A program made the position numbers and the translations under genes. A model generated the notes under the pieces. It did no database searches. It worked only from the letters and a program-made list of their open reading frames with translations, and had not been told where the DNA came from. A stretch of 64,000 bases of DNA from Linnemannia hyalina (Eukaryota > Mortierellomycota > Mortierellomycetes > Mortierellales > Mortierellaceae): positions 310,001 to 374,000 of the forward strand of contig JAHRHY010000011.1 of NCBI GenBank assembly GCA_019671135.1. Direction: 5' to 3'. Below, piece by piece: positions 11,675 to 52,930 of this stretch (position 1 is its first letter; every line of letters begins with the position of its first letter).

Positions 11675-14273
11675 ATGGACAACAACATATTTTCCGCCTG
11701 GAGGGGCAGACACGACGCTCCTGGGAACAACAACTCCTGGTCTGCGACTGCTTCTTCTGCGTCTGCCCCTGGTGCCATCTCAAACAGCACCGCTGCTACC
11801 ACGTCCTCCTCTCGCCCTGACGATGACAGCAAGAACAAGAACAACAACAACAACAACAGGAGCACCAACTATGGCTTCGGTGGCAGCAACACGAATTTCA
11901 GCAGCAGCGGTGCTGGCTTTGGCGGCAGTAACACCAGTTTCAGCGGTTCTGGCTTCGGCGGCACTAGCTTCAACAGCAACAACGATACGACGAGCGGCAT
12001 CGGAGGAGGAGGAGGAGGAGGAGTTAATCAGCTCTCGAAGCTGTCTGGTGACATCGGGACCATGCAGATCAGCTCATCGACCACAACCTCGTCCGGTCCT
12101 TTGACGACTCCTACGGCAACTTTATCAGCTTCGATCCTGGCCTCGGCGCCCTCTTCTGCGCAGGATCAGACTGGCGGGGATGGTGAAGGTTTTTCATCCT
12201 CGCCGTCTCTTGGCGAAATTCATGACAGTGAGTATCATGACCGAAACAGCATGATGACATATCAGGAGAAAAAAAAAGCTTTTTTGAGTACTGATCATTG
12301 CATGGGGAAAAGATGATTGACTGATAGCGTAATATATGTTCCTTCTGCGTTTTCTTTTTGTCGCGAGTTTAGGCCAGTCGCGAGAGATGAGCAATTTGAA
12401 CGCGGGCTATGATGTCCATGTCATTCAGCAGGACCAGAGTTCGCCTTATCACTCCATCACGCGCTTTGAAGAACTGAGCTTGTATGTTACTTCGTTGTTA
12501 ATTTTTTTTTTGGCTTTTTGTGATCAAGCGGGCATGGATATACCTTCTTACATAAACAAACAAACAATCGATAACCTCTTTGCAACGGTCATCTAACTGT
12601 TTTGTCTGGCGTTTTGTATTTGCATCTACAACAGGCACGAAGATATCCTGAAGGGTCTGTACAACAAAAAGTTTGATCGCCCGTCCAAGATCCAGGAACA
12701 CGCGTTGCCACTTCTGATGAAGAACCCGCCGCAGCATCTGATCGGCCAAGCTCAGTCTGGCACGGGAAAGACGGCCGCGTTCTGTCTTGCTGTTCTCAGC
12801 CGAATTAACTTTGACGATCCGAATTGCCAGGTAAATAACATCAATCGTTTAAGAGATGGTGGCGGGAAAACTTGATGAAACAAACTCGAGTATTACATCA
12901 AACTGCAGGAATCGTTCAATGATGCTCACTGCTGATCAACATTGATTTTGACTCGATCGTAAACATAGGCGATCATCTTGTCACCGACGCGCGAGTTGAC
13001 CCAGCAGACGGTCGATGTGATGAAGGAACTGGCGAGGTACACAACGGCGACGGTTGCGCCTGTGGTCTACCAGAGCGACCGATGCTACAGCCGCGTCGAT
13101 GGACAAATCGTGATTGGCACGCCCGGAACAGTCGGCAGGTTGATCAAGATCCGCCACTTGAACGTTGCAAAGGTCAGAATGCTCGTCTTGGACGAAGCCG
13201 ACTCCATGCTGGATATGCAGAACCTTGGCCAGATGAGCGTCCAGATCAAGAGGTATCCCTTATCTTTTCTGCTCAAATAGCCATTATCCCCAGCGTGCTT
13301 GGGTGTCTTGGTCCGTGCGAAATTTTTGTGTTTAAACAGCCAGTTGAGTAAAATTGCAAAAGGAGAGCGCTAACCGTATCCTTATATTTCTTCGCGTTGA
13401 TTTATTGTGCAGGCTGATACCGAATACAGCACAACTGGTCTTGTTCTCGGCAACGTACCCGACTCGCTTCGAGAGGTACATCGAGGAGTTCCTGGGAAAC
13501 GCGCCCAAGAACGAGATCCGCCTTCGCAAGGTCGAGGAGCTTGCAATTCGAACCATCCGCCAGTTCTACATTGACTGCGAGGACGAAGAGGACCGATTCT
13601 CCCTCCTGTCGGACCTCTACAAGGTCATGACCATCTCCAAGAGTATTATCTTTGTCCACGTATGTTCGCTCTTTTACTTACAACTGCTGGTTGACCATTT
13701 GTTGCGATTGGTTGGAATCAATACCTAGTTCAAGGGTATTTACCATCCTGCTTATCTCAAACCTTTTGTAAAAAATAGGCACGCGAGGTGGCAGACAAGA
13801 TTACGGCACGACTGATTAGAGCTGGACACTATGTCAGCCTCTTGCACGGAGGCCTCAGTCCAAACGAGCGCGACAAATGCATGGATGATTTCCGAAACAC
13901 GCGTACAAAAGTCCTAGTCGCGACCAACGTCTTGGCGCGCGGGATCGATATCTATGATGTCAACATGGTCGTCAACTACGATCTCCCCACCACCCTGCGC
14001 GGTCCGGATCGCAAGAAGGTTGCTGACTACGAGGTCTACTTGCACAGAATCGGACGTACGGGCCGATTTGGTCGACGTGGGGTGGCCATCAACTTTGTCC
14101 ACTCGCTGGAGGCGCATGAGATCTTGCAGGATATCCAAAACCATTATATGTGTGACATCCTCAAGATTGTTACCGACTGGATGAACCTGGAAGGAAAGAC
14201 AGGGGACGAGAAGAAGGAGACGCGTCTTGATAATATTGAGGCGTTTATCAAGAAGACTTTGAAGGGTGTCTAA
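11675..14273 (+). CDS. DBP5: DEAD-box mRNA export helicase DBP5/DDX19 with long N-terminal extension (627 aa, 6 exons)
   Basis: DBP5 remodels mRNPs on the cytoplasmic face of the nuclear pore and is activated there by Gle1 and InsP6. Exons 11675-12227, 12373-12481, 12635-12830, 12969-13252, 13413-13659 and 13779-14273 give 1884 bases in frame. Motifs in order are the Q motif (Gln241), AQSGTGKT (260-267), PTREL, the DEAD box LDEADSM (Asp361), [30 protein letters not shown], and [13 protein letters not shown]. Family-specific words such as [19 protein letters not shown] and [11 protein letters not shown] separate DBP5 from eIF4A. The usual length is about 450-500; here some 200 extra N-terminal residues are rich in Ser, Asn and Gly and contain three GFGG units. 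The gene converges with the receptor kinase at 14897. Confidence 0.95.
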
Positions 14274-14896: not shown

Positions 14897-17800
14897 TCAA
14901 CCTCTATTCGCCGAAGACGATGACCGAGAACGAGAATGCTTCGAGTAATGGTTCGTAAACAATCTCAGGCACTGCTCCAATTCTTCCTTCCGAAGCGGTT
15001 TCGAGATGTAATCGTTCATGCCCGAGGCGATACACTTCTCACGGTCTCCTGGCATCACACATGCGGTCATTGCGATGATGTAGGGGCGGTCGGGGGTGTT
15101 GCCAGAGAGATTCTTGCGGATGTAGCCGGAGGCGTCGAGGCCGTTCATCTTGGGCATCCAGATGTCCATAAAGATCAGGTCGTAGGGGACTATATGAGGA
15201 CCGGGACCGGCTGACTTTTGGGGGGCGGAGGTGGTTGTGGTTGCGGGGAGGTCGGAAGAGATTGAGTTGAGGGACTCGAACGCGAGGTCGGCGATCATGG
15301 TGGAGTTTGAAGAAGCAACACGAGGTGGGTGAGGTACATTGAGTTGATCGTCAGTATCAGTGAGGAGACCCAGTCCGGAATCGACACCATGAGTACTGCT
15401 AGTCGCGCTGCCCGAATCCGAATACTGGACTCGTTGCTGAGTTCCAGCTTTCGACACCAAAATTGGTCTCTGCAGTTGCACGTTCGACTCTGAGAGTGAG
15501 TGTTCGAGAGGCGAGGGCAACGCCAAGGGCAAGGGTGCAGCCTCGTTACCGTCAACTGGAGCAGTTGCAGATGAGCCTTCAAGCTGCAGAGAAAGGAGAG
15601 CAATCTTCTTCTCAATCAGTTCAACAGCTTCTTGTCCGTTGTTGGCGAGATCTGGTTCCACTCCGAGTCGGCCCAGCATCTTGCAGACGACCTTGAGGTT
15701 GACCGGGTTATCATCGACCACCAGGACCTTGATCTTGGCCATCTTACGCGCAGTCGACGAAGACGCTGCCGCGACTGCTGCCATCGCTGGTGACGAGTAG
15801 GCACTTCCTCCGCCATTGCCTCCTGTCGCCGCGTTCATGCCGACAGTTCGAGGTGTGGTGATTCCAGGCTCAGATCCTGTGGGGGACATGATCGATGACC
15901 TGGGGCTCGACATATTCATGGCTGCGATGGACCTACGCTTGGGCGTGCCTGGGAGGAGTCGCTTGGGTACGGGTTGCTGTTGCTGCGGGCTCAAGGTCAT
16001 CATGGTTTCATTGTTCTCGTTGGAACGAGAGCGGGGCTCTGGTTGAGGCGGGGGTTGATCCAGGAACTTGATCTCCGGCCCGCTTGTCGACCCAGTCGAG
16101 GTTTGTCTTGATCTTGTGGTGACTGTAGGGGCAGGTCCCGAAGCCATCGGCGCGATACCGCTGCTATCATCAGAAGGGATATCAATCACCACAGTACTTG
16201 TGGGATCCACAGAGTCGATGAATGTCTTGTCGCCGCCCATGGGCATCTTGAGGGTATTGGCCGGGAAGAACTGACCCTGACCTGGGACTGGCTGCTCATT
16301 CGGCTGGATGGGATCAACGAAATACGGCTCCGTGGAATCTGCCCGTGGCATTTGTTGCTGCTGTTGCCTCTTCATGGCCAAGGGCATGAGCGGGAGAAGA
16401 GCCATGGGGTTCGCAGAGGCAGTGGCACGAAGGGCGTCTTTGAAGAGGGTCGGGTTGTCGTTGGTCGGAACCGAGGCGTCCTCGATCTTGACATGGTCCT
16501 CCTCGTCCTCAATCTCATCCTCCTCATCAATGTCGTTATAGTCATCCTCGTCTTCTTCTTCCTCAAAGTCTCGAGGATCAAAGAGGATGGGTTCCTCGCC
16601 AAGCGCCTGCAGCACCTTGGAGTGACGAATGGGTTTGGTAAAGTAAACCGGCGTGGTAAAGATGCCCATGCCGTTGTAGCCTCCATACTGCATCACCCGA
16701 CGGTGATGATAAGACATGGAGCCGCCAACTCCTTCGTTTCCTTGATAAGGCAAAGGTGGACTGGTCGTCGTGACTGACTCGTTGTCGCTGTTGCTAAAGT
16801 ATCCAGTACGGCCGAGGGAAGGTGCGGGTGAAGGGACGTTGGTTGAGAGGTGGTCGACGCTGCTGATGCTGTGCTCATAGATCGTCGCCTGGGTATGAGG
16901 TGTCAGCAGACTGCCAGGGCCGGTTGTGTAAGTCAGTCGACCGGTCTGAGAACCACCCTCGACTCCGTTATGTGCAAACGGAGGAGAGGACCTCTCCGAG
17001 GGCAAAGAAGACGTGGAAGCACCAACATACTTGGACTGTTGCTGTTGTTGCTGTTGTGGCTGTTGAGACAGGTCACCATAGATCTTCCATCGGCCCTGGG
17101 GGTCAAGTCGGTGGTGGATCGAGCCAGAGCTTGTCGACACAGCTTCCTCATCCCCAGTATCACTGCTCGAGATTCTCTCTCCACTCCACCTTGAGGCGTC
17201 TCTACGAGCATGGCCGTGGTACGAGGACGAGACAGATGCCGCAGTGCGGACGTCTCTCATATTCTTAAAGATAATGACGGGGATCAGGGGCAGGGCAGTC
17301 GGGGAGACAGTCCCACTGAGATCTCCAGTGCCTGAAGAAATGGAGGCGGCCTTGATCGACGCCCGGCGTCTGTTCAGAGCTGACTTTCGGTTAGGACCAG
17401 AAAGATGGGTCGTTACGACTGCTGATCGCTGAATGGCGTTCAAGATGCCTTCGGGAGTAGCTGAGACCAGTCCCTGGAGCTCAGTCTCGATAATCAGTGC
17501 CTCGACCTTCGCTTGGAGAGCCTCGCGTGTCAAAGCCTTGGCCATAGACGTACTTGAGACAACATTGTCGCTCTCGTTGGACTCCTGGTCGTCTCGGAGG
17601 TAGGGCAAGATTTGGTCACTTCCCAGGATCTTGACGTTATTCATGTTCCAGGCCTGCGTGCGTCGCCTCCACTCCTCCTGTCCCTTGGGGCAGTCCTGAA
17701 CAATCACCAGCTTCTTGTCCGCTAGCTTGGAGAGCTCAAATTGCTGACCGTACGAGGGACATCCAACAGGGCTGTCGAGGACAATATTGAAGGAAAAGGT

Positions 17801-20800
17801 TGAGCCGACGTTGGGAGTGCTTTTGACCCACATGCTTCCACCCATCAACTCACTAAGGCGTTTGCTGATTGCCAGACCCAAACCCGTTCCTCCATACTCG
17901 CGAGTTGTGCTTTCGTCCACTTGAGAGAAGCTGGTGAAGAGCTTGTCGAAGCGATCGGCTGGGATACCAACACCTGTGTCCTTGACGGCGAAGACCAACT
18001 TGATGGGTTTGGTCTGGGGAGGGATCAGGGTTCCGGAGCTTGTACGGCCCATATCTGCTGCATCTGATAATGGTACAGACTCCAGCAAATCTGCTTGGGT
18101 CTCCTCCTCACTGATGACTGCAGGTGGTGTTGCTGAGGTTTCTGTTGCGGTGGCCTTCCTGGAGGGCTTCTTGTTACTACCGCCGCTTCCTGGAGGCATC
18201 AATCGTGTGGGGTCCGCTGCGGTAGCCGTAGTTGTCCTGCTGTTTCCGGCGCCGTTGATGGTCTCCTCACCCTCAAATCGGACTTCGGGTTGAGTCTCGA
18301 CAGCGACCGAGACATGGATAACACCCTCCTTGGTGAACTTGACGGCGTTACTCATCAGGTTCAAAAGGATCTGTCGGATTCGTGTGACATCGCCCATGAT
18401 CTCGACGGGGCAGTTGCGGTCAATTTCATAGATGAGACTGAGGTCCTTGTTAGACGCCTGGGAGCTGATGAGGTTGACAGCGGACTCCATAACAAAGCTG
18501 AGATCCAGAAGACGACGCTCCAGTTTGAGGTTGCCAGACTCGATCTTTGAAAAGTCCAGGATATCGTCAATGACAGTCATCAGTTGATTTCCGGACGACT
18601 CAATAGTCTCGGCGCACTCTGCTAGCTCCGGGTTGAGCTTGGAGTCCAGCAGAATTCGCGACATTCCGATGACGGCGTTCATGGGCGTTCTAAAGTAAAT
18701 ATATTAGGGACATGGTATATCTCCATTGTGAGTAAAATACCGTTGTATCGCGATGATACCAAAGAGGCTATCCTACCATATCATAATTCGTGGACATACC
18801 TGATCTCGTGGGACATGTTGGCCAAAAAGTTCGACTTTGCTGTTGCTGCTGCCTCTGCACCCTCCTTGGCCTTTCGGAGATCGACGACCAACCGATTGGT
18901 TCTCGCCTTCTCCGCCTCGAGTTGAACGGTTCTCTCATGCAGGTTGCGGGTTCTGTCCCTGACCAGTTCCTCCATGTCGTTACCATACTTCTCCAGCATG
19001 GCAGACATACTGCTGATAAAGTCGCTCGACTTGTGGGGGTTGATGTCGTTGATACGAGTCAGCATGGCCGTGAAGTGGGGGCGGCTGCTGGGGTCCTTTG
19101 ACAGACATAGTCGGATCAGTTGGTTCATCTGCTCCAGGTTCTCACGATCCTCCTCAGTGAAGGTACCGTCAGTGGGGGCCATAAAAGTTGGGCGGAAGTC
19201 TTGATCCTTGACCATATCCAACACGTTAGCGTCGTCGTTGTAGTCATGGTAAGGCAAATTGCGCGTCAAGATTTCGTTGAAGATGATTCCAGCACTAACG
19301 TAATTGAAAGAAAGAGGAAGGCTAAGTAACTTGCGTTGGCGTTCTTCTTGAATGACATGCAATGTACCTGTCACATGCACATGTCATACCTATAATGATC
19401 GCCACGTTGGCTGCCGATGGCCTCATAGTCGCCATTCTTGTCAAGCTGTAGACATTCGGGAGCTGTCCAGAGCAAGGGCGTCGAGTCAGTGCTGTAATCA
19501 ATGCCCGAATGTTCGGCCATAGACGATATGCCGCTGTGGGATGGGGGTGCAGCCGGGTAAATAGAACCATTGCGGGAGCTGCCGTGTCTGTGGTGGAGTC
19601 GAGGAGAAACTGCTGTCGAAGTAGCTGTGATAGGTGTCCCAGCACCAGCAGCAGTAGCGTTCTCCTGCCCATAAAACGCACGCTCCTCCTTGTCCATGGT
19701 ATCAGTCAAGTCGCGGATCTTAGGAGAAGGCGCCTCGTAACCAAGGTCATAGATGCCCTGCTGTTGTTGGAGATGTTGGTTGAGGTGTTGGGATCGATCC
19801 GAGTCAGACGCCCTAGGACGGAACCCGCCGAATCCTGATCCTGATCCAATACTGCGCTGCTGGTTGGACGAAGAAGTAGACTGTGTGGTCTGAGCCAGAT
19901 TATTAAACTGGTTGACTTCTGATCCTTCTTGCTGCGACCTGTAGAGCTCGCTCAGACCATAACCCGCAATCTTGAGCTCCCACCGGGATGAGATCAGGCA
20001 ATTCATACTTGTGAGACGTCCGTGGAAGGCAATCTTGGACATGTGCAAAAACTCCATGCCTCTGCAAAGATCTTGCATAAAGTTAAACTTGAACAGCCAA
20101 GTGAACTTGTGGTCGGTGTTGGCCAAAATTGACGCCAATGTTCCTTTGGGCACGAGTTCTGGTTGACGGGAGAGTTGAAGACTTTTGTTAGACATTGATG
20201 TCTTTGCTGTGTTTTGCTGCATGGATAGAGATTGTTGCACATGGGTTACCTGTGACGATGCAAATGTTGGGCTGGGCAAGGCAGACACCGACAAATTCGA
20301 CAAGCTTGGGGTGGCGAAGTTCACGCATGTTGAAGATCTCTTTGCGAAGTTCTGCGTTGACAGTGACTTTCCTCGATCCAATCTTCTTGATGAAAACGGG
20401 CATACTCCTCCATGTGCCTACAGCCGAAGACCCGCGGTTCATCACCAGGGAGAACTGGCTGTTGCTATGTCCCTGCATGCCCTTGGTGTTACTACCAAAC
20501 ATGTTAAATAACAGTCAGTCTCGTGTATAGTAGTATGCAATTAAAAACATATCAAGCTACTTGATGATACATGCGAGGAGTATTCACTTACGTTGAACCG
20601 GATCGTGCACTAATACTGGCCGATCCGGCACGACTGCCGCTGCGAGGGATATCCGGTGCGTCCTGGGATTCCGAAATGGAGAGCTGTCGCGTAGCTGACG
20701 GTGTATTCTGGGACGATCCACTGCCGACCGTGATGGCTGGGAGAATGATATTGTTGTAGTTATTCCTGATCCTCTTGCTGAGGCTGTGACTGTTGGTGGT

Positions 20801-23800
20801 GCTTCCTTCCTCGCCACCACCATCACCTCCATCCATGCGAGGAGGACCAAATGTGCCATCAGGTTCGCCTCCAATGCCGCTGTAAAGGAGCTTGGCAAGA
20901 TCCAGCTGCCAAGAGTCGTCGTTCAACTTCTTGAGGTTGATGGATTTTTTGCGGCGGACCCACAGGCAATACACGGCCACAACTGAGGCAATGGTCACAC
21001 AGACAGGGATAAGCACTGCAAGCAAGAGAGTCGTGATACTCACTATTGTTCAAAAAAAAATACACGAGGTAGAAGGTTAACAGAGGTCTTTGCGGTGCAA
21101 AAGGCGGAGCATACGTGCATGCATGCTGAATATCAAGATTATGATGAGATCAAAACAAAGGAACACTTACTTCCCGAGGAACCTGAACACTCCTCGCCTT
21201 CACAGATCTCGCATTGCGTTTGACCGATGCCCAAAGTGACTTGACCAGAAGGACAGGATGTGCACTCACTAGAGTCTGTGCTGTTACTGTATTTGCCCTT
21301 CGCACAGCGCGTGCACATGGACTGGACAAGGACACGGTTTTGGGCGTCCAAGCAAAGCATGGATGTAGCGCCTGCTAATCCAGTCAGACCAGGGTCAGAC
21401 GCCAGAGCTGCAAGATTGGCACCGACATAACCGTAAATCGACCCGAGATCAACCGGGGTTTGGTTGAATGAGGAGTAAAAGCTGCCTGCGGAACAGGCGT
21501 AGTCCATCGCAACAGGGCCCGTATTAAAAAACTGGTTAAAGACTGTCGCTCGGCTTGGGAACATCATGCGGGACGTCAGACTCAGGATGGAGTGGAAGCC
21601 TTGGAGATACTGCTGCGGGTTTAGAATACCGGTGACTAGTTCGTCGCGCGCCAGAGAGAACAGGTCTTTGGGCGACAGGCCGAGGACAAAGACGCCAGGG
21701 GTGTTCGGGTCACTGGACATCTTGGACAAAGAGGGAAGGGCGGCGAACGTGGACGCATTCCTCTTCAATGCGGGCCCCATCGACTCTCCAGAGTTCCGTC
21801 GCAGATTAGTGAGGTCATTGTAGACCTCGTCGACCTTGGCGTACAAGGCCAACGAGGTGCAGATGATGGAATCATAAGCCACGACAGCCGAAGGTCCAAA
21901 AGCGTCCAGGATCTGCTGTGTTGCGTTCCTGCTTGGTGCTGTATCACTGTTGCCCGTAGCCGCCTGGGCGGATGCTTGGTGCTCAAGTCGAAGGTCGCCG
22001 TTGATGTCGAGGTCTCCTGCAAGCGAGCCAGTCATGTTGTAGGCGAGGTCAACCGCATTCGCCTGGATGATAAGAATCATGTTGTCTTTTGAGCCCACTC
22101 GGCCCATTCCGTACATATGGACTAGGGTGTTGTACAGCTGTTCGCAGTGTTTGTATTGCCACCAAGGACCGTTCTCTTCCACAAGACACAGAGGGACGCT
22201 GTAACTGCTGCTGAAGAGCTCCTTGATGATGGTCGATCCCATGGCCTCGTCACTCGGTCCAAGCCAGACAGTCCTATTCTGAAGTACGGTCGTGTTTGAC
22301 ACACTGCCCAGGCCAATGACAGGCATGTCCGCACCGAGAGTCGCAGTGTTGTTCATGAGCTCATCGTACTGCGTTGTGTCCGCGAGAGAGACCACGACGC
22401 CCTGAACGCCACTGTAAGGTCCATAGTTGACGGAAGAAGAAACGCTGGTCTGGCTCTTCTTTAGATCTGCGTGAATTGTGTTGAGCTGACCCATTGAGGT
22501 TGCTGATACGGTATCATATCCAAGCATGGAGGCCGACTGGACCAATCCTCCTAGCGCTTCATTCCACCGGGTGGATTCGAGCGGGATGTCGCGGTTGAGG
22601 ACGACGACCGTTTTCTGCGCTTTGGCAAAGTCCTGGAGGCTGGCGGTCATATCCAGATGGTACTCGTGTTCAATCGTCTCTGCTGTCAGCAAGTTGGGTC
22701 CTGTGGTTATAACGGGCTCCACCAGTTTCTGTCCTGTGGCGACCTGGAGGAAGAGCTCAATGACTGGAATGGCTCCCTGGAGATAAGGTGTCTGGGAAAC
22801 AGCAACGGCGATTGCACCCGATTTGACATTCGCGACGACAGTGTCATCCAGATCAAACGTGCCGACCCAATAGTTCCCTGTCCTACCGACCGCTGGAGTC
22901 ACAGTGACATTGCGCGGTAAAACTGAGGCCTCCAAGGCGAGTGGCATGACCACAATGCTCATACTGATGATCGCGTCGACGGATGTCTTATTCCGCAGAT
23001 AATTCCTGATCCTGTCGAGGTTTGCCGGTGTATTGATGTTGGTCGGTCCAGTGAAGATGGTTTTGTTGAAAGCAGAGCCTTCCTCAAACGTGATTCCACG
23101 ATTGGTGAAAGCTCGCATGACTCCTGCACATCGATCGTTCAGAGACTGGACCGTCTGAGTGGGACTGATGCATAAAAAGTTCCTGGCGCCTATTTGCCAT
23201 TAACACATGATGAATTAGCGAACGATTTCCTTGCTATTTTGAATTTGTTACATATGCAATATTCAACGCAGACTATTTACCTCGGTCGTAAAGGGCATAC
23301 CCAAGCTTTTCGCCAGCGAAAGTATCATTCTGAAGGACGGACAAGTAGCCCAGCTGACTTGCGGTCTGTTCACCCACATTGATAACCACGACCGGCATCC
23401 CTACTTGCTCCCTGGTGACCCGCATCACGGAGGCGGCGACTTCGGCGTTAGGGATGGTCAAGAAAAGGCCATCGTATAGTCTCGAATTGGCGGCGGCATG
23501 GATCTGATTGGCCATAATGGTAGGATTAAAAGTATTGTTCTCGGGCAAGAACCAGTCTACCTCAACACCGGTCAGATTAGCGGCGTCATTGGCTCCATCT
23601 AGCACTCTATCCCAGTACGTGGACGTTCCTAAACCTCATGTAGGATCGGAAAAATTAGCTTGTGCACTTTACTCGTTGCTATATGACCAAAAGAAGAGCA
23701 TCTAAAAAACATGAGTGTGCACGGCTTACCATGAATGATACCCGCCAGTCTAATGGGGCCGTTGGTTGGTACCGAAGGGAGCCTGCCATTCAGGCCGGTC

Positions 23801-24024
23801 ATCGAATCAGGGTCGCAGGAAATAATTTTGGACAGATTCATTGCCACGGCGTTGCTCTGGACAGTCCAAGAATTGAAGGGAGGCGGGGACACCAGAGTAA
23901 CCTCTCTCCGACCAAATGGCTTTCGAAGACCTTCTAATGGAAAGGCATCAGTACCCTGAAGGAGCGCGAGAGGCACAAGGAAAATCAAGGCGAGCCGGAG
24001 TAGAAGATAGAGTACCGAGTCCAT
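14897..24024 (-). CDS. Receptor hybrid histidine kinase with guanylyl-cyclase-receptor-like pseudokinase (2803 aa, 8 exons)
   Basis: Exons, 5' to 3': 24024-23730, 23628-23281, 23189-21171, 21042-20592, 20491-20250, 20158-19390, 19294-18800, 18689-14897 (8412 bases, in frame). Order: signal peptide (about 1-27); one or two type I periplasmic-binding-like modules (about 90-800) with many N-glycosylation sites; a Cys-rich GCC2/GCC3-like stalk (CTRCAKGKY...CTSCPSGQ) before residue 887; one membrane helix (about 889-911) and basic stop-transfer; a kinase-homology domain (about 1050-1450) with Lys1073 but HGR (1164-1166) for HRD and GYG (1184-1186) for DFG, hence a pseudokinase; a signalling helix (EKYGNDMEELVRDRT); HisKA with MSHEIRTPMN (His1537); HATPase with DTGVGI (1777-1782) and GGTGLG (1806-1811); a degenerate receiver; and a C-terminal receiver (Asp2532-Asp2533, Asp2715, KPLR). 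It probably senses an extracellular ligand and signals through the fungal phosphorelay; the ligand is unknown. Confidence 0.93.
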
Positions 24025-34804: not shown

Positions 34805-37800
34805 CACCAAGAACAGCATGATTTTGACCAAGGACGCCAGGAACACTACCACTACCAGCAACAGTCCCATGATGCCTCGCCTCATCTTCACTCGCATCGC
34901 GAACAAGATCAACAATGGGAGCAACAGCAACATCACCAACAACAGCAGCAGCAATGGACCCCTACATCTGTCCAGCTTGATGCTTCAACCCCAAGGACAT
35001 ATCACGCTCACCGCGAGTTCTCGTCCTCTTCGTCGTCCTCGACGCGGCCACAGGGAAGCCCTTCACAACCCCCTCGCGGAGCAGCACCCAAACTGAGAGA
35101 ACGGATGCGACAGAGTCCTGTCCTTCACTCAAGAATTGTGCAGGCCTATCTAGACCCCAATGCGTCTCAGGCTCAGCGTCAACAGCAGCAACACGTATCT
35201 TCCGAGAATGTCCGTCAGGCTTGGCTGCAGGACGCTCATCAGGAAAGCAGTGAAGATGACACAGAGGAGGAACGGGAACAGGAACACCAACATACTTCAC
35301 CAATTCGTCCCACACCCACTCGTTTGCACATCCCAGTCGTCCATCATCCAGTTGTGCCATTACCAATCCAAGGTAGCACATCACCAACAAGTTTCTGTAT
35401 CCTTACTCCTCACACCATTTCTTCCCCTTTCCGTTTGCTAATTGTTCTAAATATTGTTTTCTTATAGTTGCTCCTGTTCCAAGTTTTGAGGCACCTTCAC
35501 CTGTGGATCAGCACGACACGGAGCAATCTTGGAACGAGTGGAATGAGGACGAATACGAGGACCAAGTTCACTCAGACCACCACCACCAGGAGGAGACTGC
35601 ATGGGGCTTTGACGGCCAGATCGACATTGAGGGTGGCGCTCAGCCTGCCGAACAACAAGTGGAGGAGGCTTGGGGTTTTGATGAACCCGTCGACATTGAA
35701 GGAGGGGCTTTGCCTCAGGTTGCAGAGCCAGCAGCGGAGACAGCCCGGGGGATTGACGACAACATTAACGTTGAAGGAGAAGCCCACTCGGGAGAACAAG
35801 CAGAGGCTGCTTGGGGATTCGACGATGATATCCAAGTCGAAGAGAATGTGCAGGAACAGCCACACACAGAGCCAGCCCAGGACCCCAACAATGCTCATGT
35901 CAAGGAGGAGGAGCAACCACGCGCCCATCATGACGAGACAGCTTGGAGCTTCGATGATAACCTGCATGTGGAGGAGACTATGCAGCCGGATCTGCAACAA
36001 GTCGAGGCCGCCTGGGGCTTTGATGATAACACTGACATTGAAGGCGATATCCAGGCAGAGGATCTCTCACCAGAGCCCATCGCAGTCGTCGAAAACACCA
36101 CTCAGCTTGTCGAGACCGCCCACCCAGATCAGCATCAAGGAGGGTCAGCCTGGGACAATGACGACAACATTCATATCGACGAGACCGCTCAACCAGGACA
36201 ACATCAAGCAGAGTCAGCCTGGGGTTTTGACGACACCATCGATATCGTCACCACTACTGCTACTCATGAGCATCAGCATCCGGAAACGACTGCAGACGTC
36301 GAAGTGGGGGCCAGCGTCGACATGAGCAGCACGGCATCGGACGATCATCATGTCGGAGCTTCTTGGGGTTTCGAGGACAAAATTGAGATCGACGACACTC
36401 CACAAGTTGAGCAGATCGAGTCTGCATGGGGCTTTGATGAGCCTATCGCGGTCGATGGACATATCAGTGAACGCGAGGTTGAGCAGGCCGACAACTCTAC
36501 CGCCGCTGTGGAACCAACCTACCCTACCATGCACCAGGCTCACGAGAGTGATGCAGATTCGTGGGACTATGACGACCAAGCTATCGAGCTCATCGAGGAG
36601 GCTGCTGTCCAGGAAATTCACTCTGGTTCCTTTGCCGCCGATGAGCATGTAAGTCGAAAATAGCTTTTGACAGCTCGTCCAAGGAGTTATATTTATTTAT
36701 GCCTCTTTACTCACACTGCGCCATTGACCCTTAACTTCTTCTCTAGGACGACAATCTTGATCGACAGGATTTCCAACCATCTCACGCCAGCACGACGGAT
36801 GACTCCTTCTCAGAGCATGTTGTGATGCCACCCTATTCAGCGACACCAACCGCCGACAATTACGAGGACGACCGGGAGTTGGCAGTAGTTGTTGATCATA
36901 CCACAACGGACGGATCGCACCAACTGGTTCAAGAACACCCCCCACACGCCGACGCTACTGTTTCTGAATCTGACAACCATCACAATCTGTATCACACGGT
37001 GCCTGACGACGCCCACAGCGCTGAATCTGCTGGACCGAGCGATGCTGTTGAGGTGACTGAAGCCGAGCAGTCATGGGGGTTTGATATGGGCGAGGTTATT
37101 GGAGGCGAAAATCTCGAATCGGCCGCGCTGGACAACCCTTTGAGTGAAATTGCTCAGGAACCTTACCAGCATGAGGAAGCCCATGTCGTATCATCAGCAG
37201 ACGACAACACCAACAGCCAGATCGAACAGGAATCTTTCGTGGCAAGCACAGTTGAGGCGACTGAAGGCGTTATTGAAAACATTAAAGCAGCAGCCATTGC
37301 TGATGAGACTGAGCGCGCCGACCAAGCAAGCGACGATGAGCATGACTCTGAAGTCAGAGAGGTACGTGCTAGATTTGCTTTTCAAGAAATTGAAGTCATT
37401 GCTAACAACGATTTCAAACATTTTGCTAACCCTTCTCTACCACTCTATCACCTGCTTTGTTTAGGTCTTGTTTGCTACTCAGCATACCCCAGTCGCCATT
37501 CCAGAGGAGGGCGAGAGCTCCGAAATCTCACCATTCGCAACCAACTCTCGAGCTCATTCTGGAAACTCGGTGTCTTTCGACGACAGCAAGCCTTATTACG
37601 CTGATGCCGCTGTTACTTCAAACCTCCTTGTGAAGGAAGACGCCGCACCATCGCACCGGCCTGATTCTAGAGGAAGCATTGGCGAACCGAGGCGGTCCGC
37701 GTCTGACTCAGAAGGTAGCGACATTTATGGCGACCTTTCGACTGCCTACACTGGCAGGAATATGCCTTCCAACCGCTTGAACGAAATCCTCGATGACGAC

Positions 37801-40800
37801 GACTATCTGGAGCATATGGAGCGCGGAGTGCCTATGGATCGATCGATCAGTACACCTTTCAGTGATGACGAGACACCCAAGTTTGTCATGGAGGACGATG
37901 CTGTGGAACTGATGGAGCGCGGCGAACCTCAGTCAGTTGGTAGCGCGCCTACTGACCACCTGGAGACTCTGGAGGACGAGGATGATGACAGCTCAGATGA
38001 TACCCAGGCCACCTCCTCTTCCTCTGAGCGTGCGATCGAAACCTCGGAGGTCGTAGCCCCATCAGACCTGGCGCTCTCTATTGCTGATGGCACTGTTTCT
38101 CAGAGCTTGCCAGACGCTATTGTGGAGACAACGACGGGCCTAATGTCGCATGGAGTCGATACCTGCATTGTCGAGAAGCAGGTTGTTGAAGCACTGCCCG
38201 TTGGAGATGCCAAGGTTGCCATCTTGGAAGAGGAAGGGCCCGCGACGGCTGTTGAGGCTGTTGTAGACGCAGCCAGTGATGATCGCGATCCAGCCAACCC
38301 ATTCAGCGACGCTGCGGCCATCGACGACACTGATTTGTGGCAAGCTACTAAGCCGTTGCTTGAAAAATCTGAGAAGGAGGAACTCCTGTCTGAGCCTCTT
38401 GCCGACGCATCTTCCCAGGATTCGACTGTCGACGTTAAGGGTCTCAGTCCTGCCATTGACGAAGGTGCGGAGGACGCTTGGGCAGATCAGGGTCTAGATG
38501 TGGCTGTCGAGCCTACACTCGACATTTCAACACCTCCAACAAAGCACTCCATTTCTGAGATACACACGGATGTCAACTCCGAGGCAGAGGAGACTCAAAC
38601 TGCTGCTGACAACATCGATCAGGATATTATTGATGGCTTGGACGGCGACGCCTGGGATGATCAGGACTTGGATATCGCGGACAACTCCTCCACCCTCGTT
38701 CAGATCACTGAGGAGTCGAAAGAGGCGCCAGTTCATCATGAGGTGCTGCCTGTCGTTGAGCATTACGAGAGACAGCTGGATAACTTGGAGGTGCCGGAGC
38801 AACCCTTGGTCGAGCCCAACGTGGATGTTCATGATGTCGAGACTGCTGCCCAGCCTGGTCCTTTCGACGACTTGAAGGAGGAAGTAGCCGATGATGACTT
38901 GTCGGAGCTGTCTGCAGTCAAGGAGGTGGCCATTGAAGCACAGGTCCCAAGCCCACTGCTGGATATTGAGACCTCCGCAGTCCATGTCTACGGAACTCCT
39001 GCTTCTCAACACGTGGATATTCCGGTAACGACTCCCAAGGAAACCATGCTGGAAGTGGATGCATGGGACAACCAGACCGATGCTCTTGGTATCGACACTG
39101 CCTTGGAAGAGGATGCATGGGCTGATCAGGAAGACGCAGCCCCTTTCGACATCCCTGGCGTGCCTGTTGTACCTGCCGCCGCCGTGAGCCAAGAGAGTTC
39201 TGTCTCCGATCTCTTTGCCGACAAGTCTGACCAGCACTACAGCAAGCCTTCCTCTCCTGTCCGCGCGTTTGCTTTCTCACCTGCACGAGCTGATTCTCCT
39301 GTTCGCGCATCGGCCTCATCGCCTGTTCGTGGATTCTCTGCTTTCGCACGTTCTCCCACCAGCCCTCAAGAGCGCTCGGTCTCAGATTTGTTTGGCGACA
39401 AGGCAGAGAAGTCCTACTTCAAGCCCGCGTCCCCAACTCGCGGGTTTGCAGCATATGCTGCCTACTCCCATTCTGATCACCAGCAGGAGAGGTCAGTCTC
39501 GGATCTCTTCTCTGATTCTCCTGTGCAACACCCCGTCAAGCCTGCTACACCTTTACCCGTCCCCGCAACTGCACCTGTCGAGGACGACCTTTTGAAGGAT
39601 GCTGTTGAGGAGGATGCATGGGACGATCAGGACATTCGCATTGACGAGGAGTCCCTACCTGTTGCTACCAAGTCGGAACTCCTGCCTGTTGCCACCAAGT
39701 CTGAGCCAGAGCTAGAGCCTGAGTCGGTGACAACCGCATTCGACGTCGAACAGTCTATCGACGACGCCCCCGAGGGTGACGCATGGGGAGAAGATCAAGA
39801 TATTCAGTTCGACCAAGAGCCCATGCCTGCTGAGGCAGAACCTCACGTTGAAACACCCGCTGCAGCTGTTGATGTCCAGGAGGTCCATGAGCATATCGCT
39901 CACACCTCGGAGCAGACTTTGGAATCCCACTCGACACAGGAGACGACATACGCCTTGGACATTAACCAGTCTATTGATGTTGCGGTTGAAGACGATGTGT
40001 GGGACAACCAGGACGATGGCATGACTTTTGAGTCGACCTTGCTTCCTCAGCATGAGCTTGAGCAGGAACCTCAGCAGGGACCTCAGCACGAGCCTGTCCA
40101 TATTGCTCCAGAGACTGCGCCAGTCGAGGATCTCGCCCAGGAAGATGCCCACAAGCACCACGAGCCAACTGCGGATACCCTCAGCATTGGTCATTCCCTT
40201 GAGGCCGCTATCGAAGAGGATGCATGGGACAACCAGGAGGATATTACATTTGGCCAAGAGTTCGAGACCCGCCAGGAACACCACCCTATCAAGCTCTCCC
40301 ACGAGCCTGTTCACTCGGAAGACATCGTCGTAGAGGACAACTACCCCATTTGTGATGACATCCCTGCCTCCCCTCTTGCAGAGACCCAATTGACTGAGCA
40401 TAATCCCGCATCGAACCAACCTGACGAGCATGAGGATCAGCCGATTCTGCCCAGCTTCGAGTCGCCTGCCCTCCCAACTCCCACTGACGCGGAGGTCGAG
40501 TTTGACCTTGACAAGGCTCTAGAGGACGATGCTTGGAATGATCAGGACGCTGACGTTGGCCTTGAATCTATCGAGCCTGCACATACCACCCAGGATACCC
40601 ATGCTGCGACTGTCATAAAGTCTCGAAACTTTGATGCCAAAAAGCCCGAGGAGCGGACATCGTTAACAGGCAGTAGGATCGAATCTATCAATCACCAGCC
40701 TCACGCCAAGACGGCGGTTGATATTGTCGAGGATGCCTGGGGGTGGGATGAGGACGAGGTTGGTGTTGATCTTGAGATCCAAAACGACAACGAGGCCACC

Positions 40801-43800
40801 ACATTTGCCCAGGACGACCAAGACAAAGCCGAGCACATGGACACCTATTCGCCTATCGACGCTGAGGAAGTGACAACTGTTCAAGACAAGGCCACACCCG
40901 ATGCACATTCGCCTACTCAAGTGCTCGCTGAGACGCCCAAAAACAACATCCCCCCTTTGGCGATCCAAAAGGAGCGTCTTGCCGCAGGAGCCGACAGTGG
41001 CGAGGGTGAGGCTGATAGCGCCACTCAGAGTCCTTGGCAAGATATCTCGCCTGGGTCTGTATCCAAGAGAAGCGAGGCAGGCATGAGCATTGGATCCGAG
41101 TTTGAGTCGGAATATTCTGTGCGGTCGCTGGATGAGGACGGTCATGTCTCGTCAGCCTTTGATCGCCACCAGCCTCATGGACAAGACACAGGTGCATCCT
41201 TGGCAGAGTCTGAGACGAAGAAGGCTTTGGAGACTACGATGTCCTGGACCGATCTCAAGGATGACGATGCATGGGACGATGACCTTCCTGAAATTGGCCC
41301 CATCAACCCTCCTACCGACTCCAAGGAGACTTCTGCACCAACAAAGGAGACTGATAACAGCGCCGATGCCCAGCAGCTTCCAGACATTAGCGGTGCTGAC
41401 AATTGGGACTTTGACCAGGATGATGACATTGAAACCGAGTCGTCTTCGTTGTATGCAGGACTGACGCCCGCATCTACACGAGCTAGCTTCTCGCGATCCC
41501 TCAAGACGCCTGACATGACCGAAAGCCGCTCGTTTGGATCTCAGCCCTCGCCTCAGAACAGGACCCCTACATTCAGCAGCATCACGTCGTCGCCCGGACA
41601 GGTCTTGTCATCATACCAATCTAGCATGGTCGGATCAACCCCTGCCTCTCCTAGCCAGGTTGCTGAACCTGCAATCCCAGCGGCAGAGATCGAAGATGAC
41701 TCTCATTTGCCCCTCGCTATCCGTCAACAACGCGCACGTCTTGCAGCTAGAGGAAAGCCCCTGCCTCCGATCTCCAAGTACAAGAGCACCAAGGAGACTG
41801 CTGCAGAGCAGCAGTCTTCGCCCGTGTTGAGCTCAGCTTCTCCTCGTCTCGCCGCCGCTGCCGCCGTCGTCTCCCCTGGCATCTCGTTCGCTTCACCCAC
41901 GAAGACCCCTGTCAGCCCTGCGTTGAACCCTACGCCTGCTGCTAGTGATCAAAAGTACCTCTCGCCTGCGCTGCAGAGGCAAAGGGAAAGACTTGAGAAG
42001 AAACGAGCCGCCAGTGCAGCTGCCGCTGCAGTACCCTTGAGCGCTGCTCGTCGCCTAGTACCTTCTGAGTCTTCTTCCTCGCAGGTTTCCATCAAGCCTA
42101 CATCTCCCTTGATCAAGGAGGCAGTGTTGCCCTCGGTCTTGAAGCACACTTTGTCCTCGCCCACTAGTGTCAGAAAGTCTGTTCACCTGGTGGATCGAAC
42201 AGACACCACGACGACTACTTCATCAACATTCTCGACCGAGGAATTTGGTCACTCTACCCGTCGCCGAGGTTTGAGCGTGTCGTCGAACCAGAGTGCTCAG
42301 GCTACCTCGCCCTTGACTCCTACTGGCGACGGTGTCGTCCGTCGAAGCAAAGAAGGAAACCGTCCCAGTATGTTCTCGTCGTTTTCTGCGGCCACGACTC
42401 CAACAAGCGCGACCTTCTCTGAGATAAGCGAGTCGAATGTTGTCAAGTCGACACAGAATGACGCCTTCCGACTTGTTTCGCGGTTGTCGATGTCGTCGTC
42501 AACGGTGGGCTCTGGGTGGGATGATACCCCTGAGGAAGATGTCCAAAATGAGGAGGAGAAGAAGAGCAGCAAGATTGAATCCAAGGTGACTGGTAAGGGT
42601 GTTGATCGCAAGGAGGTCGTGTCACGTCCGGCGATGTTCTCGTCCACCTCGTCGTCTTCGTTCTATCAGCAGTCGGTTCCTGGCCTGGATGATGATAATA
42701 ACTTTGGAGAACCGAGTGTCAAGTCGACGAGTGGTGACGGCTTAAGTTCCTTCGCCAGCGATATCAACACTACTACGACAACTACTTCGACGACGTCGTC
42801 GTACCTGAACAGCAAGAAGGCGGACGACTATGATCCCTACGGACCCAAGGCCTCTCACAAGGCCAAGTCCTCGTTCGAAGACCAGGATCGGGACTCGTAC
42901 GCAGAAGCGAACGAAGTTCTGATTGGCCGGTCGGCTCCTTCTCATGGAGTATCGCTCTTATCGCCAACCTCTGCTACCAGCATGAGCCATCGTCATGACC
43001 CTCACCATCAACACTTATCGAGTAGCAGCAAGTTTGGAGGCGGTGGTAGCATCAAGGAAGTGGCCCACACTAGTCACACTACCACGACCAGCAGCAGCAG
43101 TAGCGGTGGCGGCTTTGGCGGCGGATTCTTTGGAGGCGGTGGCAGTGGAGGCAGCCTTGTTGGCGATATCAACAGTCTGTTGCAAGAGAAGAAGAACCCA
43201 GCTCCTACTTCTTCCTCTACCGGATTTGGTAGCAGCAGCACCAGTGGCGCCAACCTCGGAAGCGACTACGAATCCAAGAAGCCCTCAGCAGCGTCAAGTC
43301 AACCACCATCGGCGGTCCAACAGAAACAACAGGGGCCTCCGAAATCCAGCAGCTGGTCTTTTGGATCCTGGGTCAGTTCTGCGGTTGCGGTCGCGACCGA
43401 GAAGATTGATCAGGCGTACGAAACCTTGGACCCTGAATACTCCCGGATGAAGGGCCGGTCGCCCATGACGTCCAACTCTACTTCCTTTGCGTCCGATGTT
43501 GGAGTTGAAGGCAGTGGTGATCCAGATAGTTTGAGCCCGTTCAAGAAGCCGGGGTATGTCGTCGGTGGCAGTTCTTTGGCCCTGGGTCTTGCGTCCATCT
43601 CTGCTCCTGGCAGCTCTGGCGCCGCTCCTGGAACTGGGCCTTCTACTCCTCAAGCACAAGCACAACGATATGGCCGTTCATCTTCTGAGGCCCCTCTCTT
43701 TGCCATGTCGAGTAGCAACAACAACAACAACAACAACAAACGAGAAGAAGATAGCTATGTCGAGGAGTCGTTTGCGAGTGCAGGAACCGAGTCGTCTGCC

Positions 43801-43920
43801 GATTCGTATGGTCGTCACGCCGGTCACGGTGGCAATGCTCACCATCGGGCTTCACAAAACACTTCTTTAGAGCGTGACCAATCTCTGTCGCCCCGTTTGA
43901 CGCGCAAGAACGTCCGGTAG
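34400..43920 (+). CDS. Giant disordered protein with about 25 acidic tryptophan motifs (3074 aa, 4 exons)
   Basis: Exons 34400-35372, 35468-36648, 36747-37361 and 37465-43920 total 9225 bases in frame. The N-terminus has a His cluster, acidic/serine stretches and polyglutamine runs. From about 35.5 to 42.5 kb an acidic Trp motif recurs about 25 times: first in the form AWGFDDxIDIE (about 12 copies), then as EDAWDDQDxDI (about 13). Three SVSDLF boxes lie near 39195-39505. Three copies of a short LAIxxxRxRLAARG-like basic element follow at about 40.9, 41.7 and 42.0 kb. The C-terminal third is Ser/Thr/Gly-rich, with an aromatic amphipathic segment (SWSFGSWVSSAVAVATEKI) near 43.35 kb. No enzymatic domain is visible. 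Acidic Trp and DLF peptides commonly bind coat or adaptor ear domains, so a vesicle-coat scaffold is a reasonable inference. I do not recognise the family. Confidence 0.88.
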
Positions 43921-50045: not shown

Positions 50046-52930
50046 GGTGTGTGGATGGAGTGATGGGAGAAAAGAATAAACAAGAAAAAGAAAAAATATG
50101 CCGCCTTATTCTCTGTCTCATTTTTGACCACCCGCCACCCCTTTGCGAAGAAAGAGCACTTTGCAACCCACGAGAGGCAGAATAAAAAGAAAAAAATCAA
50201 AAAGACAAGAGAAGAAGGGCTCACTCCAAACAGACTTGAAGTGACTCGCTTCTCATATAAACAATACTGATCACCGAAATCATCATTCATCGCATGTCTT
50301 GCGTATATCCACCACCTCTTGAACCCTTACTTTGCCACCATATTTCCTCGCAGACAAAGAGAACGCGTCCGACTCTTCATGCTCGTTTCATTAGCGATGA
50401 TTAATCGTAGACCTCGCTATGGAAGGAGCAGGAGGATACACAATACGAAGAAAGACCATCGTTCAGCAAGGGAACCAATAGACGGAGAAGACAGTTCTTT
50501 TAGGGTGGGAGAATCCAAGGTTGTGTCTATCCAATCGATAGGACGTGATACCAAACACACAACACACAAACAAAGTGAGCCTTTGGACAACAGCAATAAT
50601 AAAATTATCCCACCCCTGTGCACTTTGTTCCTTTGTGCTCCTTCTTGGGTTTTTTCTCCAACGGCAAAATAGATGGGCAAGCTCTCTCTTTCTCTCTTGC
50701 TTTCATTTCTTGCTGAAGATTAATGGGGGGGGGGGGTTCTCTTTGTTTTTGGAGCGTTGGGTGAAGCTTAAGACCGATCAATACTTTGGGTTTAGGAGAA
50801 CCCAGAAATACCACAAAAAAACTGCGTTTGATTTTTATTTCTTACCATTAGATGTATACATCAAGATAGAGGTGATAGTCGAAGGGCGAGAATAAAAGGA
50901 ACCATGCACGATGCTTTTTAGGTTAATGAAGTGGCTCTCAGACTACAGACAACGAGAAACGGGAATAGAAAAAAAATTGAGAAATGAAGAAGTCAGGTAA
51001 GTAAGTAAGCAAGTAAAGGCAGGCAAGCACAAGGCACATTTGATACAGACAAGGCGTTGAAGCAAGGCGTGTATGTCCGTTCTAGAGAGGAAAAAAAACA
51101 ATAAACGACAACTGGTTGATCTGTTGACCCCAAAGACTCGACCCCCTGCCAACGTGTTCGCAGGGAGGGCGAAAGAGCGGAAGGAAAAAAAAGAAGGGGG
51201 CATCCAATGTATGACCCTGAGGTGACCCTGTTGTTGGATACAAACACCCTTTTTTCGCCTTGGCAGACCCTCCTTTTGTGCTGGTCTTGACCAGAAAAGC
51301 GATTGACGATTGGGTGGCCATTTGTGATCGATCTACAGGAAAGAAAAGACGGGCTGAGTGACAGAAAAGAGAACGGGACTGGCATGACATGATGGATGAC
51401 GAGAATGGCCATGCTAACAATACGAGTGCCAACAATAAAGCGCAATAGAACTGGATCGCGCTTTTTTTATCCATTTTTTGACATACAGCCAACTTGTTGG
51501 CATTGTTACATAGCATGTCAACGGCTATTTTTTCCTCTCTCTCTTTGCTCTGAATTGAGAATGAATGCCAAGGCCATGACAACCAGATATACTGAGCAAA
51601 ATAGGCCGACGAAAGCACGAAAGTGAGAGTGGAAAGTAAAGGGTTTGTTGAGCTGAGGAGAGAAAGAGAAAGGAAAGATAGAAGAAAGCTATATATGAGC
51701 GAAACTGGTAAAAATAGTGTGCGACATGGTGTAGATAGAAGGATTGACTGAATGAGAGGGGCAAGGGACTCAATGGGAAGAAGGCATGGAAGGGTCAAAA
51801 AGGACTTTTTGTTTTTCCCACTCATGTTTGTTTTGTATGCGCTTGTTTGTCCATCGCTCCGCTCACAGTGTTTATGTGTACCTGAACGACCAATAGTCGG
51901 GCTGTGTGCAAGAAGGAGGAAGTCTAGAGTGGAGAATGTGAATGGCTCCTTGTGGACTTGATTCTTTCTCGAGAGGTGCAAGGAATGGCTCTCGGTCTGT
52001 TGCTGTTATTATCAATGCAATTGCGAACAAATGATAAATAGCTAATTTGTATGTACTTGTGCATGGGGACAGACGGGTGCTTGCCTGTCCCTTGGTCCCT
52101 TGAACTTGGCTGATAATCGTTCTCGTCTCTCATTGATTTCGTGAATGTGTGCCAGCGCACCAGTCAAGTTGCAACCTCCAAAATGTAAAAATAAATCGCG
52201 GACTCCTCTACTTATCTCACCCTTTTTTTACTTTTTACTTTTCCTTCTTTCTTTCTTTTTCCTTTCATCATCAACATCCCTTCTTCCCTCATCAACTCAA
52301 CCCTCCACCCTTCCTTCCTTCCTCCATCCCTACATCACGTAAGTTTGCCCTCCAGTCGCCATTGTTCAAGCTCTGTCCTTACTCTACTCATCCAGGATGA
52401 CTCGTCTCCCAGGAATATTTTTCTTCCCATCCCAGGACAGACACCACATATCACCAGCAAGGAAACACGAACACAAGAACAGCCTCACTTCGACTCTTCT
52501 CCCGTCGATAATGTCTTCACCATGTGAACCACCGATAGGAGATTTTAAAAAAAAAAGAACCTACGTTCTTCACGTCAGTCATGCATAAGGAAACAGGATT
52601 ACCGTTTTTCCTCATTTCGTCATCTTCCATGGTGTGGAAGTGTGTCATCCAGAACCGACTTTGAAGACGAACGCTCCCTTCCAACTGGGAAGACAGGAAT
52701 AGCACTCTGGAAGAAAGAGCAGACAACCCGGTGGAAAAAAGAAGGGAGCAAAAAAAAAGAGGATGTTGTTGTTGCAAGTTGCAGCTTGCATGCTTACTGA
52801 TCAGCTTTATAGCGTTTGCAGTTGGCCTTTGACAAGGTGGACACCAATGGGCTGCCTGGCATCCCGCATTTGGTAATCCAATATTAATATATTAACCTTC
52901 CGTTCATAATTACATTTACATATGCATAGC
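50046..52930. other. Divergent intergenic region between TIF3 and SEC14, with a probable SEC14 5'-UTR intron
   Basis: No coding sequence is supported. A likely untranslated first exon of SEC14 ends in ATCAC/gtaagt at 52338, and the acceptor ATGCATAG at 52929 lies one base before the SEC14 ATG, implying a leader intron of about 591 bases. Upstream of it, 52200-52330 is a strong pyrimidine-rich promoter or leader block. On the minus strand, 51.0-52.0 kb is stop-poor because it is CT-rich. Confidence 0.5.

Follow-up and report, generated by a model that had tools for sequence, protein, structure and literature searches.

Can the core of a receptor guanylyl cyclase drive a different enzyme? The question is raised by a gene in a 64,000-nucleotide stretch of the Linnemannia hyalina genome (contig JAHRHY010000011.1, positions 310,001 to 374,000; hereafter the window), which runs on the minus strand from window position 24024 to 14897. 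Its product is very probably a single-pass receptor in which a core homologous to that of the receptor guanylyl cyclases (rGCs) is followed by a hybrid histidine kinase, and which would relay a ligand-induced change of the ectodomain so as to switch histidine autophosphorylation. The shared core consists of a juxtamembrane tryptophan motif, a kinase-homology domain (KHD) and a signalling helix (S-helix) reading LEKYxNxMEELVxxRT. This reading is founded on the structure of the gene, the order of the domains, the homology of the core, the loss of catalytic residues from the KHD, the histidine kinase and receiver motifs, conservation of the arrangement in early-diverging fungi, and linkers whose lengths step by heptads.

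The receptor cyclase core

Where does the kinase-like domain belong? In a PDB sequence search, residues 1040-1499 matched atrial natriuretic peptide (ANP) receptor 1 best, at 147.6 bits and in two stretches, the second of which extends from the C-lobe through the S-helix; further matches were GC-C (77.6 bits), the tyrosine-protein kinase 7t6f (70.2) and EGFR (68.7). With a profile of eight relatives the ANP receptor scored 216 bits (positions 16-327), GC-C 145.5 and the histidine kinase 7z8n 116.8 (positions 300-441), the matches to the ANP receptor and to 7z8n overlapping within the S-helix. In a tree of 96 kinase domains (23 from the fungal family described below, 26 from rGCs and 47 others, two of these being other kinases of the same genome; P0102 was dropped as too short), the family and the rGCs form one clade with support of 100/100, and the family alone forms one at 100/99; the others were drawn from our own match lists and represent near neighbours, not the full kinome. 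The joint clade appeared again, at 100/99, in a second tree of 58 rows that held more rGCs of 'Opistho-2', which we take to be a unicellular relative of animals. Scored domain by domain against the KHD of the relative P0094, the best rGC reached 175.6 bits and other kinases at most 95.1, apart from P0177, to which we return. A search with this gut-fungus-type KHD listed two family rows first; the next 55 rows are the multi-kinase protein P0122, whose kinase domains reach at most 72.7 bits each, and 54 kinase-and-cyclase proteins. Judged by these sequence comparisons, the KHD of the L. hyalina protein is a true homologue of the KHDs of rGCs, as the earlier note on this DNA had supposed when it proposed a profile search and a tree; a placement among ordinary kinases was not obtained.

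Two proteins bearing the names Moumouvirus (P0181) and Megavirus (P0187), together with the nameless P0188, list PF12849, a PBP-like domain, alongside kinase domains and a guanylate cyclase domain. In the 96-row tree the first two have their kinase domains outside the rGC clade.

In the window KHD the ATP-binding lysine is kept, while the HxD aspartate has become arginine and the DFG aspartate glycine. Across 106 family rows the DFG aspartate is kept in 11, the HxD aspartate in 47 (one row being gapped there) and the lysine in 48, and not one row has all three together.

The motifs on either side of the KHD are shared as well. The juxtamembrane pattern W.[LIVMF].[YFLWS].[EDKARSGQTN][LIVM], which was composed after inspection of the sequences and counted only in rows with a membrane helix found by hydropathy (105 of the 106 family rows and 177 rGC rows), occurs in 104 of these family rows and 138 of these rGC rows, mostly 14-23 residues past that helix; shuffled stretches gave it 38 times in 5250 for the family and 157 times in 8850 for the rGCs. 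The S-helix motif x-E-x-Y-x3-[ML]-E-x-[LV]-V-x2-RT, loosened once from a first pattern whose opening position had to be L or E (105/106 in the family, 23/188 in rGCs), is present in all 106 family rows and in 183 of 189 rGC rows, one of which (P0314) lists no cyclase domain. It was found in none of 14 other histidine kinases and none of 46 other rows.

The gene and its domains

Joining the exons yields eight of them, separated by seven GT-AG introns of 91-128 nucleotides, with an intact frame of exactly 2803 residues in the order that the earlier note had read; the deposited L. hyalina protein KI688_001834 (P0001) equals residues 62-2803 without a difference. From the N terminus onwards, the Pfam matches of the product are Peripla_BP_4 (2e-19), Ephrin_rec_like (a weak match, in the stalk), PK_Tyr_Ser-Thr (3.8e-34), HisKA, HATPase_c and Response_reg. 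Its features are as follows.

14897..24024, minus: whole gene, exons 24024-23730, 23628-23281, 23189-21171, 21042-20592, 20491-20250, 20158-19390, 19294-18800 and 18689-14897; 2803 residues
23947..24024, minus: predicted signal peptide, residues 1-26, an N-terminal hydrophobic stretch (by hydropathy, not by a signal-peptide program)
22648..23763, minus: ectodomain module 1, sugar-type periplasmic-binding, residues 88-395, across introns 1 and 2 (PF13407, 2e-19 at residues 100-368; PDB 4ru1, 3.5e-15)
21334..22647, minus: ectodomain module 2, second binding domain, residues 396-833
21172..21333, minus: cysteine-rich stalk, residues 834-887 (seven Cys in residues 828-890)
20972..21028, minus: predicted single membrane helix, residues 893-911 (hydropathy 2.85)
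20888..20911, minus: juxtamembrane motif WQLDLAKL, residues 932-939 (pattern census)
19914..20424, minus: KHD, N part up to AGYGL, residues 1061-1200 (PDB sequence search, Pfam, per-domain scores)
19506..19913, minus: low-complexity insert within the KHD, residues 1201-1336 (gap between two kinase matches)
19063..19505, minus: KHD, C part, residues 1337-1452 (PDB sequence search, per-domain scores)
18800..19294, minus: junction exon with KHD C-lobe, S-helix and phospho-histidine (exon joining)
18829..19011, minus: S-helix LEKYGNDMEELVRDRT and coiled coil, residues 1470-1530 (motif census; modelled, at low confidence, as a single helix in relative P0091)
18533..18840, minus: HisKA/DHp, about residues 1527-1592, divided by intron 7 (PF00512)
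18808-18810, minus: phospho-acceptor His1537
17774..18511, minus: HATPase_c, divided by an insert into an N-box part and a G1/G2-box part (PF02518, 3.1e-26, two stretches; motif positions)
16439..17773, minus: degenerate receiver-like stretch and low-complexity insert, residues 1846-2290 (words LVIVQD, LIIETELQG, IPVIIFK and YFTKPIRH in order)
14954..15736, minus: receiver domain with internal insert, residues 2525-2785 (PF00072, 6.4e-19, two stretches; VVDDN, Asp2715 in LIFMDIWMP, KP)

The C-terminal half has the makings of a hybrid histidine kinase, namely a HisKA with SHEIRTP, the N and G boxes of the ATPase, and a receiver with its DD, D and K. A Pfam search of the 2803 residues found no class III cyclase domain (PF00211), and no GAF domain at E 1.

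The ectodomain is a tandem of two sugar-type binding domains with a two-lobed fold and the Peripla_BP_4 profile (type I periplasmic binding, sugar class). Pfam found PF13407 here and not the animal ANF-type domain PF01094, and no animal ANF receptor stands among the best 50 rows of each of two match lists that contain 4ru1, an absence that proves nothing. An animal-type receptor over its whole length is ruled out by this non-ANF ectodomain (Pfam and PDB sequence search). Ectodomain swapping on the same core is possible in 'Opistho-2', where the proteins P0242, P0278 and P0313 combine kinase and cyclase domains with differing extra domains (PF02608, PF02872, PF04069).

The five words that the earlier note quoted from the protein are all present. 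Its EKYGNDMEELVRDRT, said to lie directly before HisKA, is near but ends 46 residues ahead of the phospho-histidine. The receivers that it counted in the plural comprise the last one, seen by Pfam, and the degenerate stretch before it, which is read from its words and has no Pfam match; and the rGC chassis that it recognised extends from the juxtamembrane motif to the S-helix, with a hybrid histidine kinase as output, but does not include the ectodomain.

The genome holds three members of the family, the window gene and two paralogs (L031 and L032) on other contigs. Their stalks match PF07699 (Ephrin_rec_like) over the cut-off, whereas that of the window gene, at 0.00032, stays under it. Each paralog has the stalk, the kinase domain, the S-helix and NMSHEIR in one open frame (L031, 2056-4953, 965 residues; L032, 4324-7137, 937 residues). 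In the window gene the KHD C-lobe, the S-helix and the phospho-histidine share one exon (19294-18800), and therefore no splicing is needed to make the junction. Intron 7 cuts the Arg codon of SHEIR within the H-box. Since the open frames of all three genes stop at this same site, between SHEIR and TP (L031 at 4953, L032 at 4324, window at 18690-18799), the sequences suggest a single conserved intron.

A family in early-diverging fungi

How widespread is the arrangement? Sought in other early-diverging fungi, as the earlier note had advised, the pairing of kinase domain and HisKA appears in at least 102 listed proteins, mostly of Mortierellomycotina and Mucorales, and in Piromyces. A kinase domain is paired with HisKA in 102 of the 120 matches listed (the best 120; 2084 were significant among 7982 scored), and Peripla_BP_4 is present in 95 of these 102 and Response_reg in 94. 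P0094 aside, the listed members come from Linnemannia, Mortierella, Podila, Dissophora, Actinomortierella and others, and from Mucor, Lichtheimia, Absidia, Cunninghamella, Parasitella and others, genera that we place from general knowledge in the Mortierellomycotina and the Mucorales, respectively. A second search added P0121 of Piromyces finnis, and because P0094 is 89% identical to it in the KHD part, a gut fungus is the likely source of P0094 as well. (This search uses short exact words and failed to list members already known from Mucorales; the absence of other fungi from it is therefore uninformative.)

The two paralog frames are included in the 106 family rows and were left out of a census of kinase boxes by fixed patterns, which found the H-box in 104 of 104 rows, the G2 box in 103, the G1 box in 98 and the N box in 95. 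By these motifs the histidine kinase part of the family looks intact. A pattern for the receiver aspartate proved too strict (57/104), and the Pfam listing was used for the receiver count instead. Some members already have cyclase-like names, such as 'Receptor-type guanylate cyclase gcy-13' (P0024), 'RGC/RGC protein kinase' (P0041) and 'Guanylate cyclase' (P0101), although a cyclase domain is listed for none of the three. One member, P0066 of Mortierella sp. GBA30, also lists PF00781 and PF19279, presumably parts of a diacylglycerol kinase; this is either a fusion or an annotation error.

Is there a receptor cyclase in L. hyalina as well? A six-frame, intron-blind search of the genome found PF00211 at two loci, L033 (G000:C15) and L034 (C8), where LRR, PP2C and cyclase parts lie in adjacent frames, a layout that we take to be that of the fungal adenylyl cyclase Cyr1. 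Because both loci are of this type and neither has a KHD-type match, no receptor cyclase was found in the genome by that search.

Register of the linker and proposed mechanism

How could the core speak to a histidine kinase? Between the RT of the S-helix and the phospho-histidine there lie 46 residues in 102 of the 106 rows, 60 in three (P0082, P0094 and P0121) and 63 in P0101. In other histidine kinases a loose RT pattern gave eight matches, at 32 residues (five), 39 (two) and 70 (one, which by eye is not an S-helix). The spacings 32, 39, 46 and 60 are all equal to 4 modulo 7; within the family, 105 of the 106 rows have linkers to the phospho-histidine that differ in length by whole heptads. 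The next LL pair after RT lies at 12 residues in 173 of the 183 motif-bearing rGCs (the other ten were unmatched) and in the two gut-fungus rows; in 103 of the 106 family rows L[LVMI] stands at 19, a heptad beyond the rGC position. In an AlphaFold model of a piece of the relative P0091, an unbroken helix spans residues 278-365, past the phospho-histidine (residue 348), and the top six Foldseek matches to this model are GC-A chains at a root-mean-square deviation of about 10 Å; Foldseek also reads the letters, hence the structural match is not independent of the sequence.

On this basis a relay can be proposed. A ligand, likely sugar-like, would close one or both binding modules, and the resulting change in the ectodomain would cross the membrane helix. 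In the presumed dimer, the catalytically dead kinase, framed by rGC-like juxtamembrane and S-helix words, would reorient the paired helices, whose movement would constitute the signal. Because the linker lengths step by heptads, this motion would arrive at the DHp helices in phase, toggling the kinase or phosphatase state. The cue would then be read out by phosphate and not by cyclic GMP, with transfer from His1537 to Asp2715, on to an HPt protein and from there to response regulators. The genome has HPt at two places and receiver domains at 20, and this receptor family accounts for three of the 15 HisKA places found.

Several points weigh against the receptor described here. The evidence is wholly computational. 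The 14 histidine kinases that lack the S-helix motif are few, were found via their H-box and are bacterial where a source is named, and the 106 family rows are related to one another, near-copies included, with 98 distinct junction segments among them. P0177, named Janus kinase 2, scores 110.1 bits against the P0094 KHD, above the weakest rGC rows. P0101, with its spacing of 63, breaks the heptad rule, perhaps through an annotation error. Structure prediction of the junction, another proposal of the earlier note, did give the single helix through the phospho-histidine, but the P0091 model has a mean predicted local distance difference test score (pLDDT) of 59, a poor N-lobe, and pLDDT below 50 at the join of KHD and helix (residues 273-290). 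On the input side the receptor departs from rGCs, its ectodomain being unlike theirs. Finally, the histidine kinase modules of gut fungi and Mucoromycota do not group together in the best tree, so a single history of the output is not assured.

Origin of the arrangement

Did a histidine kinase take the place of a cyclase? We lean, by a little, towards a natural swap of output: the receptor cyclase core would be an interchangeable opisthokont chassis, to which fungi coupled a histidine kinase in heptad register, perhaps twice, in place of the cyclase. The earlier note had offered either a replaced cyclase or a common modular receptor. The core shared by both stands; by the approximately unbiased (AU) test, constraining the cyclase rows to one clade is not rejected in either of two trees (p-AU 0.394 and 0.278).

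The same two values are compatible with the second possibility, a serious contender if somewhat short of an even chance, in which an early opisthokont core of membrane helix, kinase-like domain and S-helix predates any fixed output; holozoans would have added a cyclase and fungi a histidine kinase, and nothing would have been replaced. That the ectodomains of the fungal family and the rGCs differ also agrees with such an ancestor. On the other hand, the 'Opistho-2' cyclase receptor P0103 branches before animals and fungi (97/75, first tree), which argues, weakly, for an ancestor that already had a cyclase.

The swap could have occurred more than once, with gut fungi and Mucoromycota each joining a histidine kinase to the same core independently, but this is rather unlikely. 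The KHDs form one clade but the best tree does not unite the kinase modules, and the two gut-fungus rows have the RT-to-LL distance of 12 seen in rGCs instead of the 19 of 103 of the 106 rows, with an RT-to-histidine distance two heptads apart from the rest. However, the AU test does not reject uniting these modules in one clade (p-AU 0.211), and the tree of these modules holds no other fungal hybrid kinase groups, its comparison rows having been chosen by similarity to the window and two own-genome rows being 90-residue pieces with very long branches.

It is highly improbable that the KHD is an ordinary active tyrosine kinase-like (TKL) kinase with a convergent likeness to rGCs, as the HxD aspartate and the lysine, each kept in nearly half of the rows, might suggest: the joint clade at 100/100, the juxtamembrane and S-helix motifs common to family and rGCs, and the absence of any row with all three catalytic residues speak against it, and the trees and the residue census rule out an ordinary active kinase. 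Still less credible is a gene-model artefact in which prediction fused a kinase-like receptor gene with a separate histidine kinase gene; the model is built from genomic sequence, but the junction exon and the single frames of both paralogs rule out separate transcripts for KHD and HisKA, and the pairing recurs across the listed family and in Piromyces.

Neighbouring genes

Tail to tail with the receptor gene lie pieces that, by their motifs, we take to be a DEAD-box RNA helicase. The window also holds an open frame of 2150 residues with no Pfam match at 0.001, a CRAL-TRIO protein, and ankyrin repeats with a GDE1-like C2 domain, the last likely part of a Gde1-type glycerophosphodiesterase.

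13354-14273, plus: pieces of the presumed DEAD-box RNA helicase
37468-43920, plus: 2150-residue open frame
52922-53776, plus: protein of CRAL-TRIO (Sec14-like) type
58023-60455, plus: ankyrin repeats and GDE1-like C2 domain

Comparison with known systems

How does the receptor compare with sensors already described? Among fungal histidine kinases, the Sln1 type, which to our knowledge has no kinase-like domain, differs from the L. hyalina receptor in having HAMP, and group X is presumably the CHK1 type. In the S-helix survey (Anantharaman et al. 2006, PMC1592074), where the S-helix is defined and seen before histidine kinases and receptor cyclases, Sln1-type kinases have it ahead of DHp, as the L. 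hyalina receptor does. According to the same text, all fungal S-helices then known were Sln1-like, and an S-helix after a Ser/Thr kinase domain occurred only in animal receptor cyclases; the fungal family has the S-helix after a kinase domain with a histidine kinase as output. The CHK1 of C. albicans has S_TKc and GAF domains (PMC9069115), the latter without a match in the L. hyalina protein.

PMC8510515 assigns Ser/Thr kinase domains to fungal hybrid kinase groups X and XVI and places XVI among the groups with transmembrane regions. Both features of group XVI, a Ser/Thr kinase domain and a transmembrane region N-terminal of the histidine kinase, are found in the receptor, by a definition assembled from that paper and compared by description only. 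The family may thus be group XVI under another description, and the earlier note's remark that no described fungal group has this order is doubtful. A figure in PMC5285503 compiles the hybrid kinases of Mortierella elongata, and the portions of PMC4965123 and PMC6944256 examined list no group with an rGC-type kinase domain and a histidine kinase. In the running text of the literature searched, a fungal receptor that combines an rGC-type pseudokinase with a histidine kinase was not found described; novelty is not claimed, and the family has perhaps already been counted among hybrid kinases with a kinase domain. What appears new, relative to the text examined, is the identity of the family core as a receptor cyclase core.

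On the input side, bacterial sugar-binding proteins, including XylFII of the XylFII-LytS pair, have the same binding fold as the ectodomain (4ru1, 5xsj, 5xss), but the receptor has two such domains fused into itself.

The closest parallel to the core is provided by the rGCs themselves (NPR1/GC-A, GC-C, Gyc76C and the speract receptor), which share the juxtamembrane W motif, the HG-L--NC and LLWTAPE words and, at the same place, the LEKYxNxxEELVxxRT S-helix. The fungal protein differs in having no cyclase, in its hybrid histidine kinase and receiver, in its tandem Peripla_BP_4-type modules against a single ANF domain, and in a KHD that has lost further catalytic residues. In hormone receptors the relay from pseudokinase to cyclase is hard to study, as the output is always the same. 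In the fungal family, about 100 sequenced natural proteins place a pseudokinase and helix of this kind ahead of a different enzyme, with heptad-stepped linkers, which makes models of register and relay testable. The known range of this receptor core, so far animals and their unicellular relatives, is thereby widened to include fungi, and the early-diverging fungi gain a likely membrane receptor that would join an ectodomain fold like that of bacterial sugar-binding proteins to a phosphorelay output.

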